Shown here: positions 13,595 through 23,195 of the stretch, piece after piece | Layout of the letters: each line of letters starts with the position of its first letter | Numbering within the stretch: position 1 is the stretch's first letter | Assembly (NCBI RefSeq): GCF_002532075.1 | Contig: NZ_LYXE01000123.1 | Location: forward strand, 1 to 36,836 | Reading direction: 5' to 3' | DNA from: Candidatus Chloroploca asiatica | GTDB taxonomy: Bacteria; Chloroflexota; Chloroflexia; Chloroflexales; Chloroflexaceae | Length of the DNA: 36,836 bases | Made by a program: the position numbers and the translations under genes | The notes under the pieces: generated by a model | What the model was told of the DNA's origin: nothing | Database searches by the model: none | Seen by the model: the letters and a program-made list of their open reading frames with translations, nothing else

Positions 13595-13800
13595 TCACCC
13601 GGTGGTGATCTTGATCATATTGGTGGCGGAGAGGCGCAGCTGCGGACACACTTCCTGGGGCAGGCACGATTCTGGTTGCTGCTGCGGCCCTACGTCCCCG
13701 CGCCCCACGGACGCGGTGATGCCGGGGATGATCCGCCCGTCGCCAGGGATCATTCCCGCCCCGATGATCGCGTTGGGGCGCCAAACCTCGTCACAACATA
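13595..13800 (-). pseudogene. Possible gene tail cut off near the MITE pair
   Basis: The minus frame reads DEVWRPNAIIGAGMIPGDG and ends LRLSATNMIKITTG before a TGA. Third positions are mostly G/C and the composition looks coding. It has no start of its own, because the frame upstream runs into the MITE-like repeat at 13810. It could be the C-terminus of an interrupted gene or a chance open frame. No domain is recognised. Confidence 0.3.
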
Positions 13801-13809
13801 CTGGATCTG

Positions 13810-13906
13810 CGTCACTTTTGGTGCATAGCGGCAAACAGAACATTCAACGTCATCGGTTTGCCGCAGCCCAGTCAGACGCCCTGGATCGTCTACACCAAAA
13901 GTGACG
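13810..13906. mobile_element. MITE-like unit 1 (97 bp)
   Basis: Bounded by terminal inverted repeats CGTCACTTTTGGTG and CACCAAAAGTGACG. The body is nearly identical to unit 2 at 13927-14023, differing at about three positions. It encodes no transposase. On the minus strand a frame reading GVLLGCGKPMTLNVLL exists, but it is confined to the repeat. Confidence 0.75.
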
Positions 13907-13940
13907 ATGAGCCGACATGGGCTCATCGTCACTTTTGGTG
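13893..13940. repeat. Perfect 21-bp hairpin joining the two MITE-like units
   Basis: The right end of unit 1 plus its flank GATGAGCC (13893-13913) is the exact reverse complement of 13920-13940, the flank plus the left end of unit 2. The loop is six bases (GACATG). The flank symmetry means the two units are joined head to tail across a palindromic 20-bp linker. Confidence 0.85.
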
Positions 13941-14023
13941 CATAGCGTCAAGCAGAACATTCAACGTCATCGGTTTGCCGCAGCCCAGTAAGACGCCCTG
14001 GATCGTCTACACCAAAAGTGACG
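13927..14023. mobile_element. MITE-like unit 2 (97 bp)
   Basis: Same length and same CGTCACTTTTGGTG terminal inverted repeats as unit 1, and same orientation. The pair forms a direct repeat with a 117-bp period. Confidence 0.75.
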
Positions 14024-14234
14024 AAGAACCACCATGTCATGGCGAGGTTTGCGGGCGCAACTCGCGGAGCACTGCTGCGACCTGATGCGATGCTGCCCGT
14101 AGCCTGGCCGTGCGCCAGATGCTACGCGAAGTGGCGTGACACTAGCGCAATCTATGCTGGTGAGCGCCGCGTGTGGGATAGTCTTGCGGTGCAGCTAGTG
14201 CGCTGATCCATTGGTTTGAAAGAGGATGATTGTA
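14024..14234. other. Region downstream of the RHS gene, no immunity gene seen
   Basis: About 210 bp between the MITE-like pair and the stop of the giant RHS gene. The only open frames are short and lack Shine-Dalgarno or coding character. An immunity gene would be expected here, on the minus strand just after the toxin tip. None is visible, and no terminator hairpin with a T-tract is evident either. Confidence 0.5.
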
Positions 14235-17200
14235 TTAGTTACATTCATCGTAATCTAACATGAAGTGATTAAACAGAAACGAGTTACCCCCCACAATTGG
14301 TGTGCCTCTGAAAAATCCGTAAGGATTAATCACTCTTGCCTTACTATAGCTATTAATCAATTTCCCTAGGCTCTTAGGTATAGGAGTCCATGGTGCCTTG
14401 ACCAATGCCCAACTAACCCCTTTTTGCTTGGCATATCGGAGACTAGCAAAAACATTCCTACCTGCCCCACCAGAGTATAATGGTGTGACACCAAACTTTG
14501 CTTCCATTAAAGATATTATTTTTTTACCATGATACTTTACTCCATCGGGAACAAAGTTTATTCCCTTGTAAGAAATTTTACTTCCAGTATATTTATTGTA
14601 ATTCGATGCAATTCTGGCAAATGGCTCATGCAGATACCTGCCCATATTGCTCATCATTGATCTCTTAAAGTTTGTAGGAATATGCTTCCAGATAGCAGAG
14701 GATGCTTTCTGCCCCATCGGTGCTAAGGCTTTCCCTGCACCAAAGAGCAAACCTCCAGCCGCTGCACCAATGAGAGCGCCTTGTGCAACTTTATCCCACT
14801 GAACATCTTGTCCATGTAATAGATCACTAGCTATTTGTGTCACGGCGCCACCAGCAGCACCTCCTCCCACAGCGCATCCAACTCCCAATGTCACACCACA
14901 AATACCTCCTGTTACAGCTCCCCCAATAGCGCTAGCACCAACTTCCTTCCAATCAACGCTACCAGTTGTAACAGCTTGTGTTACAGCGCTTACTGCACCG
15001 CCAATAATAGCTCCTCCCACAGCTCCTAAGGCTGCACCAATACACCATGGACAGTATCCATACGGATCAACTAGATTCACCGGGCTGTTGTACACGTACT
15101 GGTACCGATGCAGGCTCCGCGGTTCGCTGAACTGCCCCCGGTACGGGTCCTGGCTCATCCAGGTGCCGGTGTCGGGGTCATAGTGGCGGGCGTAGAACTC
15201 GTAGAGTCCGGTGTGCTCGTTCCACTCCTGGCCGGTGAAGGTGTAGTGGTTGTGCGGGTCGCTGAAGTTGCCCTTCGGCAGCTCGATCTGGCCGTACGGC
15301 TCGTAGCGGTAGTTGTGGCTGCTCTGGCCCTGCTGCTTGGTCAGGCCCGCGACCGAGCCCAGCCCGTCGTAGTGATACCAGTAGACCTGGCCCGCCGTGC
15401 CGCTTGGGAAGTGGTGCAGCTGTAGGATGCGCCCCTGGTCACCGCGGTAGAAGTTCTCGTACTGGGGGTTCCAGGTGTTGTACTCGGCGATCGGATCCAG
15501 CCCGTCGTAGACGTACTCCACCTGCTTGGTGCCGCCCCCGCCCGTCTTCGGGTCGTAGCTCTTCACGACGCGCCGCCCGTTGCCGTCATGGGCCATGGTG
15601 GTCACGGCGCGCTCGACGCGGTTGCCCTGCAGGTTCTGCTGGTAGTCCTGCACGACGACCAGGCGGTTCTCGGGGTCGTAGCGGTAGTCACTGCCCTGGA
15701 TGCGCGGACCCTGCGGGCCGGGGAATTCTTTGTTGATGCGGTTGCCATTGGCGTCGTAGGTGTAGGTGACGGTCTGCAACTCGCCACTGGCCCCATTGTT
15801 GGCCTCGCCCGCAAGGCGCAGCTTCGCCAGGAGACTGGTCGCGATGCCCTGGTTGCGCAACTCGCCCTCGGCCTGGTAAGTTTCGACCTGGGCGCGCAAG
15901 CTGGCCAGGGCGGAGTCCACCGCTGCGACGTTCGGTGTGGGATTGCCGTAGAGCTGCGCGAGCAGCGCGTCGGCACGGGCCAGCAGGTCACGCGCAGCTG
16001 CGCTGTTGATGCCCTTGCCCTGCTGGGCAGCGACTTCGTGGCGGAAGGCGTGCAGCGCCTGGGCGCTGTTCTCGGCCCGCTTCAGGCCGGGGCTGCCGGG
16101 GTGGGTGTCGCCGACGACGCTCAGCAACTGGTTGATCGCGTTGTAGCTGTAGTGCAGCGTCTTGCTATCGAAGGGCCGGTTGGTCGTGCTGCTGTCGTTG
16201 GTCGTCAGCGTCAGCCGATTGCCGACCGCATCAAAGGTATACGCCGTCCAGATGCCTTGGCTGTCCTCGTCGCGCACTAGGCGGCGCAGCGGGTCGTAGC
16301 TGTAATTGCTGGTGACCACGCTCGGATTACGCCAGGCGTAGGTCGCCTCCATGCTCACGCGCTGGCCGACGACGTCGTAGCGGTAGACGAAGCGGCTGTT
16401 GACGGTGTTGGCCCCGCCGATCTGCTGGTTCTCGACACTCAGCAGCCGGTTGGCCTTGTCATAGACCTGGGTCGTCACCGTGCTGTTGGGGTTCTCCTGG
16501 CGCACGACCTGACCCACGCCGTCACGGATATAGCGCGTGGAGCGGCCCTCAGGATCGGTCGTGCTGGCCAGCCAGTTGTTCTTGAGGTAGCTGGAGGTGA
16601 CGATCCGCCCATCGGGGTAGGTCAGGCTCAGGCGGTTGCCGACCGGATCGTAGCCAAAGGCGGTACGCCGCTCGTGGACATCCTGCTCCTCGATTAGCCG
16701 GTTGAGCGCGTCGTAGCTGCGCGTGGTGGTGCCGAGTTCGTTGCCGACCGTCAGGACGTTGTTATTCTCGTCGTAGGCATAGGCGACGAACGTCCCGTCG
16801 TGGTAATCCACGCGCTGGAGCTGGTCGTCGGGGTAGTAGCCGTAGGTCGTGCGGTTGCGCAGCGCATCAATGCGCTCGACCCGGTTGAAGGTCTTGTCGT
16901 AGGCGTAGCTCCAGCTGTTGCCGAGCGCATCCACTTCGCGGGTCAGGCGATTCAGCCCGTCGAAGCTAAAGCTGGTCGGGTTACCGTTGGCGTCGCGGAT
17001 CAGGACCAAGTTGCCGGCTTCGTCGTAGCTGTAGCGCGTGGTAACGTTGACATCCACGCCGACGGGCTGGCCGGGCTGCTGGTTGAAGGTGACGCTGCTC
17101 AGGCGGTAGAGCGGGTCGTAGCCGTAGCCGGTCACGATGCCGTCGGCCTCGGTCATAGCCAGCAGGTTGCCCATCCAGTCATAGCCGTAGGCGGTCGTCT

Positions 17201-20200
17201 CGTTCTCGGCGTTGGTGCGCGTCGCCACGCGATCGAGCGCATCGTAGGTCGAGCTACTGGTGTGCCCGTTGCCGTCGGTGCGGGTCAGCGGGTTGCTGTT
17301 GGCGTCATACGTCCAACTGGTCACGTAGCCTTCGGCGTCGGTGCGACTGAGCAGCCGGTAGACGACGTCGTAGGCGAAGCTGGTGGTATGCCCGTTGGCA
17401 TCGGTCTCGGCCAGCAGGTTGCCCACCGGATCATACTGGTAGCGCCAGACCCCAGCGAGGTTGTCGGTGAAGCTAATGACCCGATCCAGGCCGTCGTAGG
17501 CATACGTGCTGGTGAAGCTGCGCGCATCGGTGAGGCGGATCAGGTTGTCGAGCTGGTCGTAAGCGAAGCTGACCGCGTGGCCTTCGGGGTTGGTGATCCG
17601 CACCAGCCGGTTGAGGCCGTCATACGCGCTGGTGGTGGTATGGCCGTTGGCATCGGTGACTGCGATCAGGTTGTTGACGCGGTCGTACCCGAAGCTGGTC
17701 GTGCCGCCTTCGGCATCGAGCGTACGCACCCGGCGCAGGTCAGCGTCGTACTGGTGCTCGGTGACGTACGTGCCACGCGGGTCGTAGATGAAGCGCAGGT
17801 TGCCTGCAAGATCATAGTCAAAGCGCGTGGTGACGTTCTGCGTGCTGCTCGCCGCCTCGCCGGGGCGCTCGTTCTGCACCAGGGCTTCCAGGCGATCCAG
17901 CGCGTTGTAGCGGTAGGCCGTGACGATGCCATTGGGATCGGTCTGGGCCACCAGGTTGCTGTTGGCATCGTAGCCAAAGCTGGTCGTCTGCTGGAGCGCA
18001 TCGCTGACGCTGGCGAGCCGGTTGGCGGCGTCGTAGCTGAAGCTGGTGCTGAAGCCACGCGGGTTGGTCAGCGTGGTCAGGTTGCCCATGGGATCATAGG
18101 CATAGGTCGTCACCTGGGCGGCGGCGCTCTCCTCGCGCACCAGCCGATCCAGCAGGTCGTAGCGGAAGCTGGTGCTGATGCCGTTGGCATCAGTGAGGGT
18201 CAGCAGATTACCGACCAGGTCATAGCTGAATTGGGTCGTGACGTTGGTATCGGCGCTGGCGGGGACACCGGGCACCGCATTGGCAATCGCGGTAACCACG
18301 CGATCCAGGTCGTCGTAGACCAGTTCCTGCACTTGCTGGACGGCGCAACTCTCCCCTTCCAGCGGACTATTGCAGCGGATCAGCGCGGTCAGGTTGCCGA
18401 CGCCATCGTAACGGAAGAAGGTATGGCTCTGCTCGGGAGCATGCTCGGCTACCTGGTTATAGACCGCATCGTAGGCAAAGGTCCAGACCCGACCCTCGGC
18501 ATCCTCGACGCGCACGAGGTTGTTCATCGCATCGTAGGCGTAGCTGGTCGTAAACCCAAGCGGGGTCACCTCGGCAACAAGCTGCTCGGCCTCGTCGTAG
18601 CGGAAGCGCGTGACATCGCCATTGGCATCGGTCGCCGTGATCAGGTTGTCGTTCTTGTCGTAGCTGTAGCGCAGCGTAAAGCCGAGCGGACCATCGAGTT
18701 GGATCAGGTTATCGTTGCCATCGAAAGTGTAGGTGCTGGTAAAGCCGCGCCCATTGGTGGTTGTGCTAAGGCGCCCCAGGCCATCGTAGCTGAACTGCAC
18801 CTGATCGCCAACGCCGTTGGTCGAACTGCGCAGGTCGCCAGTCGTAGCGTCATAGGTGTTGGTCGTCTGGTTGCCGTTGAAATCGGTAATGTTTGTTGGC
18901 AAGCCACGGGCATCGTAGCTAAGCGTACTCGTATCACCGGCAGCATTGGTGATGCCGATCAGATTGCCCCGCGCATCATAGTCAAAGCGCGTGACCCGCC
19001 CTTCGGCATCGGTGAACTGCGTCACCTGGTCGAGGTCATTAAAAGCCCAGGCGCGGCTCCAGCCGAGTGGCCCGGTCTCACTCAGGCGATTACCACGGTC
19101 ATCATACGTATACGTGTAAACTCGCCCGAGCCGGTCAGTGAAGGCAGTCCGGTTGAAGTCGTCGTCGTAGCCATAGGTCTCGGTGAACCCGAGGGCATCC
19201 TGCATGGCGATCAGGCGCCCCATGTCATCGTAGGTATAGGTCGTCGGCTGATCGAAGCTATCGGTCACGATGGTTTCGGTCAGATCGTCGCTATAGCTGA
19301 AGCGATAGGTTTCCTGGAACCCAACGACCTGTTGCTGAACCCGGAACTCATCGTCATACGCGATCTGCAGGAAGGGATGGCCCTCAGGCGTGATGATCGC
19401 CGTGAGCTGCTGATCGTCGCTGTAGCGATATTCGGTGGTATGACCACGCGCATCGGTGACGCTGGTCAGGTTGCCGTCGGTGTAGGCATAGGTGAGGGTC
19501 TTGCCCTCCGGCGCGTGGATCGCGGTAATGAAACCGTCGGCGTTGTAGTCGAAGCGGATCACCCGCCCGCTGGCATTCTCGACCCGCACGAGGTACTCAC
19601 CCTCGTAGAAGAGAGTTACTTTATTGCCATTGCGGTCGCGCCGGGCCACCAGCAACCCCTCGCCATTGAACTCCTCCACCACCAGGGTGCGCTTATTGCG
19701 CAACTCATACCCGGTAGCGGTCTGCGTTAAAACATCAAAGCTGAAGGGGGTCAGGGGCACAAACGCATCCCCAGCGCGGCGGAAACTCACCACGCGGCCA
19801 TCGGGATAGAAGACCTGCGCGCCCTGCATGAGCAGGTTATCCACGACGAGCATGCGCACCGCGTAGGGGAAAGCCCAGGCGCGCCCGAAGTATTGGGGCG
19901 GGCCGGCGATCACCTCTGCCTTGACGTCACCTCCGCTTTCGGTATAGCGCGTGGTACCCCCACCACTCCCGAAGGCAGCCAGCGAGTTGTAGGCACGATC
20001 AATGGCCAGCGTGGTATCGCCCACGCCAGCAACAGTCAGATCACGGAAGCTATCGGTATAGTTGCCGTTGTAGGTATTGACCGGATCGCCCGCCCCTGCC
20101 TGGAAGCCTGGCGACGAAGGCGCGGGATCGCAATCAGAAGCATGCAACAGACATTGCTGACCAAAGTTCCCGGCTTGACTTGCCGACACGGCCAGCGGCC

Positions 20201-23195
20201 CGCCACTGGGGAAGTAGGCATCATTGCCCGACGTATCAACCGCATAGACACGATATTCATTGTTGCCCCTCGTCGGGCCATTGGCAAGCGCAAAGCCATA
20301 GAGGTCACCGCCCAGCGCCTGCATCGGGTAAACCGTACCATTGAAGGTGAGGTCAACCCGTGCCACGGCCCGGTTGTCGGTAACGAGCGCCCGCACCTCG
20401 ATCCCACCCATCCCATCCTGGAAGATATCGAGGTAGTGGATCGTCGGCGGGGTCGTATCTGCCTCCGGCAGTACCCCATCAGCGCCTTCACAGGTATTCT
20501 CGAAGGTAAAGCGGCCCTCATCAGCCGTCAGCGTGTACGTTTCCTGGTTGGTGAAGGCGCGGCACGGCGCGTATCCCACCAGATTATCGCCAGCGGGGCT
20601 GATGCGGGCAGCTTTGAAGGAGAAGATCAGCGGCGTGCCGGGCTCAAGTTTGTGGGGATAGGCATAGATCCATGGACCGATGGGTAACGTGCTTACAAAG
20701 GGTTGCTGACCTTCGGCCTCAACCACCAGCGTCAACTGGATGCTGGCACTGCCTGTATACTGCGGCGCAGCATCGACTCCCGTGGTGAAGGTAAGCTTGA
20801 TTTTCTGAATCTTAGGGTCGCCCTGAATGGGAGGGTCGTACTCTTTCAGCTCACCTGTCACAGCGATCTGGCCTTGTCCAGGGATGGCTGGGAAGTACCG
20901 GTGTGCCTCGACGACTGTATCGTTCTTACTGATAAAGCCCTTCTCAAGGAAGAGCACATCTTGGCCAACGAAGTTGTTGCCGTTCTCATCAACAAAAGTA
21001 GCGGGGGCCTGGGTCGGATTCGGGTTGCCGGTCTGCGGCACACCAAGCCAGCCACTCGGTCCACCTTCTTGCTGATACTTGGTGACATATTCGGGCTGCA
21101 GGAAGAAGAAGGCACCCTCAGCATAGAGCAGTGAACCAATCGGGAAGTGCTGGGCATAGGCACCACCAAAGGCAATCACATCCGTTGTTGGTGCGCCACC
21201 GAGCGCGTCCAGCGTGCGCAACTCACACTCGTCAATAAAGGCTTGGCGAATCGCTGTTGATGCGCCATTCCCAGCCCCGGCTGTTTCACACGCACTCAAC
21301 TCAGGTGCTTGGGGCGCAAGGCTCAGCAGCGCAAACTCGGTGAAGTGATCGGTGGTAGCCGTAATCACCCCTGCCGCTTGATCCACCACTGAAGGTAGGG
21401 CGGTCCAGGTCTGATGGGCAGCATCACGGTAGTAGAGGGCGAGGCCCGAGCCATTCTGGCTGTTGTACGCCACCCGCAGGTTGAGTGGGCGATCAAACTG
21501 GTGTACCGGGTTGCCCTGGGCATCCTCGGCGGTGAGTTGGAAAAAGACGTCGGCGTGCTGGTAGCCCGTCACCGACTGGACAGGCAATGGGCGATAGGTG
21601 ATCGTCGTGAGACTATCGACCGCCCCGACGGGCACATGTAATTCGACACGCCCATCACTGGATTGGAGTACGTCACCGCGGGTGGGTGCAACTGCGACTT
21701 GATCCTGTCCATCAACCGGAACCGCCGTCGCCGTCGCCGAAACGGCCGTCGCTGTGGGCATAGCGGGAACCGCCGTCGCCGTCGCCGAAACCGCCGTCGC
21801 CGTGGGCATAGCGGGAACCGCCGTCGCCGTCGCCGAAACCGCCGTCGCCGTGAGCGTGGCGGGAACCGCCGTCGCCGTCGCCGGAACCGCCGTCGCTGTC
21901 GCCGGAACCGCCGTCGGACTGACCGGAACCGCCGTCGCCGTGGGCATAGCGGGAACGGCCGTCGCCGTCGCCGAAGCCACCGTCGGGCTGGCCGGAACCG
22001 CCGTCGCCGTCGGACTGACCGGAACCGCCGTCGCCGTGGGCATAGCGGGAACGGCCGTCGCCGTCGCCGAAGCCACCGTCGGGCTGGCCGGAACCGCCGT
22101 CGCCGTCGGACTGACCGGAACCGCCGTCGCCGTGGGCGTGGCGGGAACCGCCGTCGCCGTCGCCGAAGCCACCGTCGGGCTGGCCGGAACCGCCGTCACC
22201 GTGAGCGTGGCGGGAACGGCGGTTGCCGTCGCCGGAACCGCCGTCGGACTGACCGGAACCGCCGTCGCCGTGGGCATAGCGGGAACGGCGGTTGCCGTCG
22301 CCGAAGCCACCGTCGGGCTGGCCGGAACCGCCGTCACCGTCGGACTGACCGGAACCGCCGTCGCCGTGGGCGTGGCGGGAACGGCGGTTGCCGTCGCCGA
22401 AGCCACCGTCGGGCTGGCCGGAACCGCCGTCGCTGTCGGACTGCTCGGAACCGCCGTCGCCGTGGGCGTGGCGGGAACGGCTGTTACCGTGGGCGTGGTT
22501 GGTGCAGCCGTTAACGTCGGACTAGCTGACGTATCGGGTGTAGTGGTGACGACTGGGGTGATCGATGGGTTTACTGGAGCAAAATCAGCACCTTCTTGAT
22601 CACCATCGACCTGTACGAAGGGCAGATAGATCGTAAAATCCCCTTGTGCCTGTACATCTGGTGGGGCCCGCGCCTCACTGGGCGCAGCAGCAGGGCGCTG
22701 AGGGGATTCGAGTGATTCACTTGGCGTAGCAGTTTCAGTTACAGTGCCCGTCCCAACAGCAACTGCCTCCTCCGTCGCAACCGCAGTTGCGGGCGGCTCA
22801 TCGTGGACGGCCTGGTTCGCCAAGGCCTGGATCATGTCTGCAGACGAACGAGAATCAATAGCGACAGCCAGGGGGTTAGGCGGGGTTGGCGGTATGACCG
22901 AAGGGACGGCGGGCACCACGAGGCCGAGTGGTTCCATGCGGGTAGGGCCATCACTTGTGCCAAACAGCGGATCAGCGTCCGGCCCGATGGCTGCCTCAAG
23001 TGCAGATCGAATCGGATCGGGAAACGGATCCAGTAGCGCTTCAGGATTTTGTGGCAGTGGATAGTCGCGTGTTAACCCGCGGTGCGCTGCGGTGGTGGCG
23101 CGGGTCACCGGGGGTGTGAACGAGAAGTTACCGACGATCAGGGCGAACAGGAGACAGAAGCTAGCGAAACGGTAAACCCGTGATGTCGGCTGCAT
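14235..23195 (-). CDS. Giant secreted YD/RHS-repeat polymorphic toxin
   Basis: 2986 residues; ATG 23195 has GAGGA 6 nt upstream. In order: Sec signal peptide (1-34); Thr/Pro/Val/Ala tandem-repeat linker (about 232-490); a ZU5-like beta domain (about 498-622, GRVELHVPVGAV); an LGFP-like segment (about 662-729, GGPSGWLGVPQ); an Ig-like domain (about 912-992); a DUF6531-like RHS entry domain (about 1036-1142, DPVNTYNGNYTDSF); dozens of YD repeats (about 1186-2610), interrupted by a helical insert at 2367-2472; an RHS core (about 2622-2712) ending in VDPYG; a Gly/Ala hydrophobic stretch (about 2712-2812); and a C-terminal tip (about 2812-2986). In RHS toxins the YD cage encloses the tip. The tip is AT-rich and contains PDG (D2884), then EAK (E2898, K2900), suggesting a PD-(D/E)XK nuclease. 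That activity is inference. Confidence 0.93.
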   Translation of the reverse strand: MQPTSRVYRFASFCLLFALIVGNFSFTPPVTRATTAAHRGLTRDYPLPQNPEALLDPFPDPIRSALEAAIGPDADPLFGTSDGPTRMEPLGLVVPAVPSVIPPTPPNPLAVAIDSRSSADMIQALANQAVHDEPPATAVATEEAVAVGTGTVTETATPSESLESPQRPAAAPSEARAPPDVQAQGDFTIYLPFVQVDGDQEGADFAPVNPSITPVVTTTPDTSASPTLTAAPTTPTVTAVPATPTATAVPSSPTATAVPASPTVASATATAVPATPTATAVPVSPTVTAVPASPTVASATATAVPAMPTATAVPVSPTAVPATATAVPATLTVTAVPASPTVASATATAVPATPTATAVPVSPTATAVPASPTVASATATAVPAMPTATAVPVSPTATAVPASPTVASATATAVPAMPTATAVPVSPTAVPATATAVPATATAVPATLTATAVSATATAVPAMPTATAVSATATAVPAMPTATAVSATATAVPVDGQDQVAVAPTRGDVLQSSDGRVELHVPVGAVDSLTTITYRPLPVQSVTGYQHADVFFQLTAEDAQGNPVHQFDRPLNLRVAYNSQNGSGLALYYRDAAHQTWTALPSVVDQAAGVITATTDHFTEFALLSLAPQAPELSACETAGAGNGASTAIRQAFIDECELRTLDALGGAPTTDVIAFGGAYAQHFPIGSLLYAEGAFFFLQPEYVTKYQQEGGPSGWLGVPQTGNPNPTQAPATFVDENGNNFVGQDVLFLEKGFISKNDTVVEAHRYFPAIPGQGQIAVTGELKEYDPPIQGDPKIQKIKLTFTTGVDAAPQYTGSASIQLTLVVEAEGQQPFVSTLPIGPWIYAYPHKLEPGTPLIFSFKAARISPAGDNLVGYAPCRAFTNQETYTLTADEGRFTFENTCEGADGVLPEADTTPPTIHYLDIFQDGMGGIEVRALVTDNRAVARVDLTFNGTVYPMQALGGDLYGFALANGPTRGNNEYRVYAVDTSGNDAYFPSGGPLAVSASQAGNFGQQCLLHASDCDPAPSSPGFQAGAGDPVNTYNGNYTDSFRDLTVAGVGDTTLAIDRAYNSLAAFGSGGGTTRYTESGGDVKAEVIAGPPQYFGRAWAFPYAVRMLVVDNLLMQGAQVFYPDGRVVSFRRAGDAFVPLTPFSFDVLTQTATGYELRNKRTLVVEEFNGEGLLVARRDRNGNKVTLFYEGEYLVRVENASGRVIRFDYNADGFITAIHAPEGKTLTYAYTDGNLTSVTDARGHTTEYRYSDDQQLTAIITPEGHPFLQIAYDDEFRVQQQVVGFQETYRFSYSDDLTETIVTDSFDQPTTYTYDDMGRLIAMQDALGFTETYGYDDDFNRTAFTDRLGRVYTYTYDDRGNRLSETGPLGWSRAWAFNDLDQVTQFTDAEGRVTRFDYDARGNLIGITNAAGDTSTLSYDARGLPTNITDFNGNQTTNTYDATTGDLRSSTNGVGDQVQFSYDGLGRLSTTTNGRGFTSTYTFDGNDNLIQLDGPLGFTLRYSYDKNDNLITATDANGDVTRFRYDEAEQLVAEVTPLGFTTSYAYDAMNNLVRVEDAEGRVWTFAYDAVYNQVAEHAPEQSHTFFRYDGVGNLTALIRCNSPLEGESCAVQQVQELVYDDLDRVVTAIANAVPGVPASADTNVTTQFSYDLVGNLLTLTDANGISTSFRYDLLDRLVREESAAAQVTTYAYDPMGNLTTLTNPRGFSTSFSYDAANRLASVSDALQQTTSFGYDANSNLVAQTDPNGIVTAYRYNALDRLEALVQNERPGEAASSTQNVTTRFDYDLAGNLRFIYDPRGTYVTEHQYDADLRRVRTLDAEGGTTSFGYDRVNNLIAVTDANGHTTTSAYDGLNRLVRITNPEGHAVSFAYDQLDNLIRLTDARSFTSTYAYDGLDRVISFTDNLAGVWRYQYDPVGNLLAETDANGHTTSFAYDVVYRLLSRTDAEGYVTSWTYDANSNPLTRTDGNGHTSSSTYDALDRVATRTNAENETTAYGYDWMGNLLAMTEADGIVTGYGYDPLYRLSSVTFNQQPGQPVGVDVNVTTRYSYDEAGNLVLIRDANGNPTSFSFDGLNRLTREVDALGNSWSYAYDKTFNRVERIDALRNRTTYGYYPDDQLQRVDYHDGTFVAYAYDENNNVLTVGNELGTTTRSYDALNRLIEEQDVHERRTAFGYDPVGNRLSLTYPDGRIVTSSYLKNNWLASTTDPEGRSTRYIRDGVGQVVRQENPNSTVTTQVYDKANRLLSVENQQIGGANTVNSRFVYRYDVVGQRVSMEATYAWRNPSVVTSNYSYDPLRRLVRDEDSQGIWTAYTFDAVGNRLTLTTNDSSTTNRPFDSKTLHYSYNAINQLLSVVGDTHPGSPGLKRAENSAQALHAFRHEVAAQQGKGINSAAARDLLARADALLAQLYGNPTPNVAAVDSALASLRAQVETYQAEGELRNQGIATSLLAKLRLAGEANNGASGELQTVTYTYDANGNRINKEFPGPQGPRIQGSDYRYDPENRLVVVQDYQQNLQGNRVERAVTTMAHDGNGRRVVKSYDPKTGGGGTKQVEYVYDGLDPIAEYNTWNPQYENFYRGDQGRILQLHHFPSGTAGQVYWYHYDGLGSVAGLTKQQGQSSHNYRYEPYGQIELPKGNFSDPHNHYTFTGQEWNEHTGLYEFYARHYDPDTGTWMSQDPYRGQFSEPRSLHRYQYVYNSPVNLVDPYGYCPWCIGAALGAVGGAIIGGAVSAVTQAVTTGSVDWKEVGASAIGGAVTGGICGVTLGVGCAVGGGAAGGAVTQIASDLLHGQDVQWDKVAQGALIGAAAGGLLFGAGKALAPMGQKASSAIWKHIPTNFKRSMMSNMGRYLHEPFARIASNYNKYTGSKISYKGINFVPDGVKYHGKKIISLMEAKFGVTPLYSGGAGRNVFASLRYAKQKGVSWALVKAPWTPIPKSLGKLINSYSKARVINPYGFFRGTPIVGGNSFLFNHFMLDYDECN
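21720..22500. repeat. Tandem repeat encoding a TATAVPxxPT linker
   Basis: About 780 bp of units such as GCCGTCGCCGTGGGCATAGC and GGAACCGCCGTCGCCGTCGC, arranged in higher-order blocks of roughly 100-120 bp that recur with few changes. On the minus strand they encode Thr/Ala/Val/Pro repeats inside the RHS protein. Long near-identical blocks make this stretch prone to copy-number change and to assembly collapse. Confidence 0.9.

Follow-up and report, generated by a model that had tools for sequence, protein, structure and literature searches.

Positions 13782-14051 of the DNA analysed here (36,836 nt of Candidatus Chloroploca asiatica, NZ_LYXE01000123.1, referred to below as the window) very probably constitute a nested, non-autonomous element of 270 bp, in which two 111-bp MITEs of the ISL3 type stand head to tail, 6 bp apart, between inverted tips like those of an rve/IS481-like insertion sequence (IS). 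An ISL3-type transposase acting in trans would have placed the units inside such tips, and the whole may afterwards have moved as a unit. The interest of the locus is its setting, that is, the nesting within foreign transposon tips at a fixed distance of 21 bp; the hairpin at its centre is itself ordinary. The features are listed below; surveyed genomes, contigs and loci are cited where needed by G, C and L numbers, the genome that contains the window (5.84 Mb, 199 contigs) being G000.

13775-13781, plus strand: left 7-bp direct repeat GGGGCGC, putative TSD of the nested element; 6/7 against the right copy, chance 0.0014
13782-13802, plus strand: left outer tip, 21 bp, CAAACCTCGTCACAACATACT, resembling an rve/IS481-like IS tip; the closest library tip agrees at 13/21, with the junction at coordinate 21
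13803-13913, plus strand: unit 1, 111-bp ISL3-type MITE, from repeat and TIR-pattern comparison
13803-13823, plus strand: left terminal inverted repeat (TIR) of unit 1, GGATCTGCGTCACTTTTGGTG; two mismatches to the TIR pattern
13893-13913, minus strand: right TIR of unit 1, GGCTCATCGTCACTTTTGGTG; TIR-pattern match
13893-13940, no strand: junction hairpin, consisting of the right TIR of unit 1, the 6-bp spacer and the left TIR of unit 2, from repeat search and folding
13914-13919, plus strand: 6-bp spacer GACATG, identical to the first 6 bp of GACATGGT, the 8 bp ahead of the ISL3 end in the right tip
13920-14030, plus strand: unit 2, 111-bp ISL3-type MITE in the orientation of unit 1, from repeat and TIR-pattern comparison
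13920-13940, plus strand: left TIR of unit 2, GGCTCATCGTCACTTTTGGTG; TIR-pattern match
14010-14030, minus strand: right TIR of unit 2, GGTTCTTCGTCACTTTTGGTG; TIR-pattern match
14031-14051, minus strand: right outer tip, 21 bp, CAAACCTCGCCATGACATGGT read inward; 15/21 to the rve-type IS tip of G057, junction coordinate 21
14052-14058, plus strand: right 7-bp direct repeat CGGGCGC; 6/7 against the left copy

Twin units and the junction hairpin

An earlier note on this DNA had described twin, near-identical 97-bp units in the same orientation, and this description holds: the two cores (13810-13906 and 13927-14023) differ at three positions, all four copies of the 14-mer CGTCACTTTTGGTG are exact, and the repeat as a whole has a period of 117 bp (13803-13919 and 13920-14036, 91% identity). 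The 48-nt junction cruciform with a six-base loop was likewise recovered at 13893-13940, with a perfect 21-bp stem, the loop GACATG and a folding energy of -25.3 kcal/mol as DNA that was equalled by none of 200 shuffles. The repeats proposed as 14-bp terminal inverted repeats are exact as 14-mers but fall short in length, as comparison with relatives indicates that the unit ends are ISL3-type TIRs of 21 bp; each unit is therefore 111 bp long, and the palindrome that had been taken for a linker is part of the TIRs. The palindrome is real, yet it is not a separate linker but two facing TIRs plus 6 bp, and since two facing TIRs always make a palindrome its presence is trivial. The junction hairpin is thus an ordinary consequence of two ISL3-type MITEs lying side by side.

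The unit ends are more diverged than the cores, with 5 of 14 positions differing in the outermost 7-bp ends as compared with 3 of 97 in the cores (Fisher p = 0.0007). The two inner unit ends are exactly complementary, which is perhaps what hairpin-templated correction would leave, and the spacer GACATG is possibly the remnant of a target duplication. Neither 111-bp unit contains a transposase gene, and the open frame has no Pfam family above cut-off. Outside the twin units lies a further inverted pair (13782-13802 and 14031-14051), with which the inverted repeat reaches 42 bp; the repeat search itself reported inverted arms at 13769-13823 and 14010-14064 (78% over 55 nt). The whole 270 nt is strongly structured (-79.2 kcal/mol, z -12).

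ISL3-type ends in the genome and its relatives

With up to two mismatches allowed, the TIR pattern GGYTCWTCGNCACTTTTGGTG has 45 matches, distributed over 18 of the 82 genomes of the order, many of them draft or metagenome assemblies; the reversed control pattern has 4. By comparison with relatives, the TIRs of the window units start with GG(C/T/A)TC. Matches to the ISL3 transposase (PF01610) lie at most 60 bp from TIR-pattern ends at G032:C149 and G037:C59 and within about 900 bp of them at G028:C66 and G071:C4, and the NCBIfam ISL3 model NF033550 recognizes two long ISL3 transposases from genomes of the order (336 and 384 bits, cut-off 180). The order also contains short two-ended elements, of 131 bp (G035:C413), 133 bp (G032:C123), 110 bp (G037:C649) and 161 bp (G044:C258). 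The term MITE-like used in the earlier note is apt in so far as the TIR pattern recurs both beside ISL3 transposases and in such short elements.

An 8-bp duplication starting at the GG and matching at 7 or more positions flanks 7 of 21 two-ended elements (8/8 in L081, L083, L085 and L086; 7/8 in L084, L105 and L233), and because the duplications start there the GG was taken as the true end of the element. Sorted by size, such duplications flank 4 of the 6 elements that measure 1.3-1.4 kb, 2 of the 11 with a length of about 1.7-1.95 kb (L081 and L233) and 1 of the 4 short ones. Neither window unit has kept an 8-bp duplication (4/8 and 3/8, compared by eye).

In the genome itself five places match the TIR pattern, four of them being the window locus; the exact 14-mer is unique to that locus and no second copy of the unit, hence no set of dispersed copies, was found. 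The earlier note had held that the lack of other copies in the genome or in relatives would reduce the pair to a one-off local duplication. The genome indeed has none, while related ends occur in 17 of the 81 other genomes of the order; because elements with related ends exist in relatives, the locus is not merely a one-off local duplication, although local duplication may still have made the pair. The transposase with matching ends for which that note had advised a search did not emerge: neither the genome nor the relatives compared yielded one with ends closely matching those of the window, the best transposase-adjacent end among those compared agreeing at 17/21 (G037:C59) and the ISL3 end of the genome itself at 15/21. 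Another end, at G009:C393, agrees at 18/21. No end was found for the ISL3 copy on C14 of the genome, nor did the genome contain a DNA match to the ISL3 element of G045 described below.

Set against the marks of an ISL3-family MITE, the units have TIRs homologous to those of transposase-encoding elements and are short and gene-less; they show neither an 8-bp duplication nor dispersed copies. As the duplication is missing at both, we call the units ISL3-type and not proven members of the family, and on the evidence of their ends they would be derived from, or work like, ISL3 elements. A scan of a genome contig database with the 14-bp ends as a pair gave no match; a scan with the extended end gave two contigs of one Herpetosiphonaceae MAG (class Chloroflexia), and a plasmid search with the ISL3 end of the genome gave none. 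A supposed ISL3 transposase beside the end at G081:C3401 was discarded, for Pfam identified it as a FAD-binding hydroxylase-like protein and gave nothing for the two other frames tested; no second end was found there.

Several elements of the order have compound ends. L089 (G057:C2) and L091 (G051:C72) carry their own TIR stacked two or three times, with a period of 22-24 bp, at one end or at both, and are bordered on the two sides by the outer sequence GACTTGGCCAATGCA; the stacking could reflect self-insertion about 22 bp inside the element's own tip. L070 (G032:C149) has two ISL3-type ends in the same direction at 2560 and 2597, 37 bp apart. The long ISL3-type elements L121 (G071:C38) and L094 (G095:C13) carry further inverted outer sequences (CTGTCCGCATGACGTG and GCCTCACGTAAGAAT, respectively).

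Outer tips and the rve/IS481-like element

Gap-free alignment located 21-mers like the outer tips of the window outside seven ISL3-type ends in G061, G071 and G081. With E up to 0.01, a sequence model of the 42-bp end, built from 9 training sequences of which 2 came from the window, matched 22 places spread over 9 of the 82 genomes; 13 of these lie beyond the training set, some of them partial and weak. Among the matches are the two ends of a complete ISL3 element (G045:C138:152-1965, transposase of 570 aa), of which a second complete copy, 87% identical, lies at G042:C33:50300-52109. In G057 a different element, present in two 1930-bp copies, begins with the tip of the G045 element and continues into other sequence; its copies are flanked by the 7-bp TSDs ATCCGCT and AACAGAT, and it encodes a 577-aa transposase with HTH_32 and rve domains. 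As this protein stays below the cut-off of the NCBIfam IS481 model (152 bits against 224), the element is called IS481-like only. Compared in register with rve-type IS tips, the outer tips of the window agree moderately, the right at 15/21 and the left at 13/21, both with the junction at coordinate 21; the left tip taken alone (score 5) is matched by 4.6% of shuffled flanks. In the genome no rve-type relative was found at E 1e-15. A second rve-type element of G057, on C1, with a 43% identical protein, has the tip GACACTGTGCCACATCATGCT; in G059 the same sequence, apart from one mismatch, was recognized by eye outside two ISL3-type ends.

The direct repeat that flanks the outer tips of the window matches at 6 of 7 positions, and repeat lengths of 5, 6 and 8 give 3, 2 and 3 matches. 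It suggests that the 270-bp hybrid has moved as a unit, which would fit the 7-bp TSDs of the rve-type copies. The element in the window is the sole case, since among the five hybrids with two tips the other four lack an outer duplication (0/7, 1/7, 2/7 and 4/7). A widespread fixed palindrome as the source of outer inverted repeats was also considered and set aside, as the comparable outer sequence in G057 and G051, GACTTGGCCAATGCA, occurs there free of mismatches only at the four element ends; two further places match it with one mismatch.

Insertion 21 bp inside IS tips

The direct case is found in G054:C8, where an rve-type element (131595-133322, minus strand, protein 77% identical) has an intact left TIR, CACACTTAGCCACGACCCCCC followed by GAACATATACTG, and its right TIR is interrupted, 21 bp from the tip, by an ISL3 element at 133458-135229. 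The insertion is flanked by the TSD GGGAGGTC / GGGGGGTC (7/8). From the split TIR and the duplication together it follows that the ISL3-type element entered the TIR of another IS, 21 bp inside its tip.

Tips of IS21 elements give the same distance. On C156 of the genome, the 21-bp sequence TGTCAAGGCCGGTTTATTTTT lies outside an ISL3 end, and with up to two mismatches it was found at 13 places in 7 of 41 genomes of the family. Six of these run on into GACCC (three each in G001 and G030), and the one such place that was checked, G001:C13, encodes IstB and an IstA with an rve domain; the other seven run on into an ISL3-type end (one each in G000, G002, G028 and G032, three in G037). The distance from the IS21 tip to the ISL3-type end is thus also 21 bp. 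The motif TGTCAAG, at one time read as a promoter or operator, is part of the IS21 tip according to the IS21 evidence, including the proteins of L131 and L215. A 161-bp ISL3-type MITE, L103 (G044:C258:17064-17224), is flanked by the 6-bp direct repeat CAAAGT and adjoins a sequence like an IS21 tip; two neighbouring frames held no IS21 gene.

In a free-junction test, designed so as not to presuppose the distance, 41 ends were picked by their inner pattern only and compared with 11 IS ends of 60 bp (from rve-type and IS21 elements), the junction coordinate being free to vary from 12 to 45. The 41 were drawn from the 45 pattern places, leaving out G061:C358, which has a tip, and three places of G028 near contig ends; some of them are probably chance pattern matches. 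At a score of at least 7 the coordinate was 21 in 10 of 10 ends (9 of 9 without those of the window), and at a score of at least 5 in 13 of 15 (11 of 13), the two exceptions lying at 16 and 13; at a score of at least 3 there were 6 exceptions among 23, and the remaining 18 ends stayed below 3. With shuffled flanks, scores of 3, 5 and 7 were reached in 19%, 4.6% and 0.8% of trials. Matches had already been seen when the IS tips were chosen for the library, and hybrids related to one another do not count as separate events. An earlier count, partly circular because its tips had been cut at 21, placed 17 of 41 ends at offset 0 and no more than one at any offset between 1 and 20 (threshold 12/21). 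The distance of 21 bp recurs in four kinds of junction: the hybrids with the first rve-type tip, those with the second in G059 (by eye), the IS21 hybrids and G054:C8.

The suggestion that palindromes may be the preferred target is not supported in that form. In relatives it is the end of some other IS that serves as target, at 21 bp from the tip, and in G054:C8 a single TIR; the flanks in the window resemble IS tips as well. It appears, from the sequences compared, that the ISL3-type target in the order is transposon ends and not palindromes as such. More generally, we put forward tentatively, at somewhat less than even confidence, that the long ISL3-type transposons of the order land at a fixed 21 bp, or two helical turns, inside the ends of other ISs whatever the tip sequence or family (rve-type or IS21), perhaps by reading the foreign transposase bound to its own end, that the host IS could mobilise the hybrid ends so formed, and that the element in the window would be a miniature hybrid moved in this way. 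Only L081 and L233 among the 11 long elements carry the 8-bp duplication noted above. Landing at a fixed distance inside the ends of other transposons is a target rule that specialists would not expect of ISL3. If the proposal is true, rival elements would be disabled or captured and hybrid ends would be built that a second transposase may move; the order would then offer a concrete, testable example of transposons that compete with one another and also hitch rides.

Origin of the nested pair

In the reading of the locus that we favour, a MITE would have been placed in one or both ends of an rve-type IS, or of its miniature derivative, by an ISL3-type transposase acting in trans. The pair would have formed either through a hit on each TIR of the host IS, whose interior was then lost, the 6-bp spacer being a remnant, or through local duplication of one MITE; the hybrid may once have moved as a unit by means of its rve-type tips, leaving the 7-bp duplication, and the perfection of the hairpin was perhaps kept by hairpin-templated correction.

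Formation of the pair by simple local tandem duplication of a MITE already between the tips, through slippage or template switching at hairpins and with no second transposition, comes close to an even chance. The cores differ at only 3 of 97 positions and share one orientation, the 117-bp repeat unit includes a 6-bp piece resembling the left flank, and the genome has no other copy; against it stands the contrast between 5/14 in the ends and 3/97 in the cores, which such a duplication would be expected to yield only if the junction palindrome had been corrected later. A double insertion, either with one MITE entering each TIR of a single host IS or serially at a re-made target, with the interior of the IS subsequently lost, is a serious possibility that we hold at rather less than even. 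The two TIRs of an rve-type IS offer equivalent targets, insertion into a single TIR is seen in G054:C8, one window unit adjoins each tip, and L089, L091 and L070 in other genomes have stacked ISL3 ends, but this route needs more steps, and the IS interior would have to have vanished entirely with no 8-bp duplications left. It is unlikely that the pair is a head-to-tail dimer formed through a replicative or circular intermediate with an IR-IR junction in the manner of IS30: the head-to-tail order and short spacer would suit it, and IS30 is described as making tandem dimers by joining its IRs (PMC9333248), yet no sign of such an intermediate was seen for the ISL3-type elements, and the foreign tips on both sides would go unexplained.

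A fixed regulatory or terminator hairpin array of the REP/BIME kind is very improbable; the strong structure of the 270 nt and the position just downstream of an Rhs gene ending at 14235 are what it would call for, but the genome holds no other copy, an Rfam element was rejected as nothing in the window matched above gathering score, and the ends match transposon ends and carry the 7-bp direct repeat. Least probable of all, to the point of being negligible, is a coding repeat in which a 39-aa unit occurs twice in an open frame. The period of 117 is 3 x 39, and there is a frame that stays open over 105 codons, but in a search of Pfam alone no family exceeded its cut-off (only TssR appeared, at 15 bits against 25.7), and the tandem is bounded by inverted repeats.

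Relation to known systems

The nested ISL3-type pair shares with ISL3 ISs and the MITEs derived from them TIRs of the GG(C/T)TC(T/A)T.. type and, in some relatives, 8-bp duplications, and the mobility of the window MITEs was presumably supplied in trans. It differs in its twin arrangement, its enclosure in the tips of an IS of another class, its single locus in the genome and the loss of the 8-bp duplications.

The nearest known behaviour is that of IS4321 and IS5075, which reportedly target the TIRs of Tn21. These elements insert at a fixed position in the TIR. The likeness lies in insertion into the TIR of another transposon; they have one target family, whereas here a DDE element of the ISL3 type is found at 21 bp in tips of two classes (rve-type and IS21). 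On the IS4321/IS5075 side the system consists of a DEDD transposase with a guide RNA (PMC11187229). The tandem dimers of IS30 (PMC9333248) likewise have head-to-tail copies, facing IRs and a short spacer but belong to a different family, and mosaic non-autonomous elements such as TIMEs (PMC4133298) are small TIR-only elements in mosaic mobile units that derive from Tn3, whereas the window contains a probable ISL3/rve hybrid. The accessible portions of the open-access literature searched held no report of ISL3 elements targeting IS tips.

Surroundings of the element

A phage or plasmid origin was rejected, as there was no phage match and a single short plasmid match, to kdpB. This match (13712-13757) covers 46 bp with 85% identity to kdpB of an Arthrobacter plasmid (E 4e-3), and may be what is left of a pseudogene next to the element, or a chance match. 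The neighbouring Rhs-repeat protein (14235-23195, minus strand) is 2986 aa long and has 26 RHS_repeat stretches; toward the 3' end of its gene (14235-14400) the GC content drops to about 0.38-0.42, as in swapped toxin tips.
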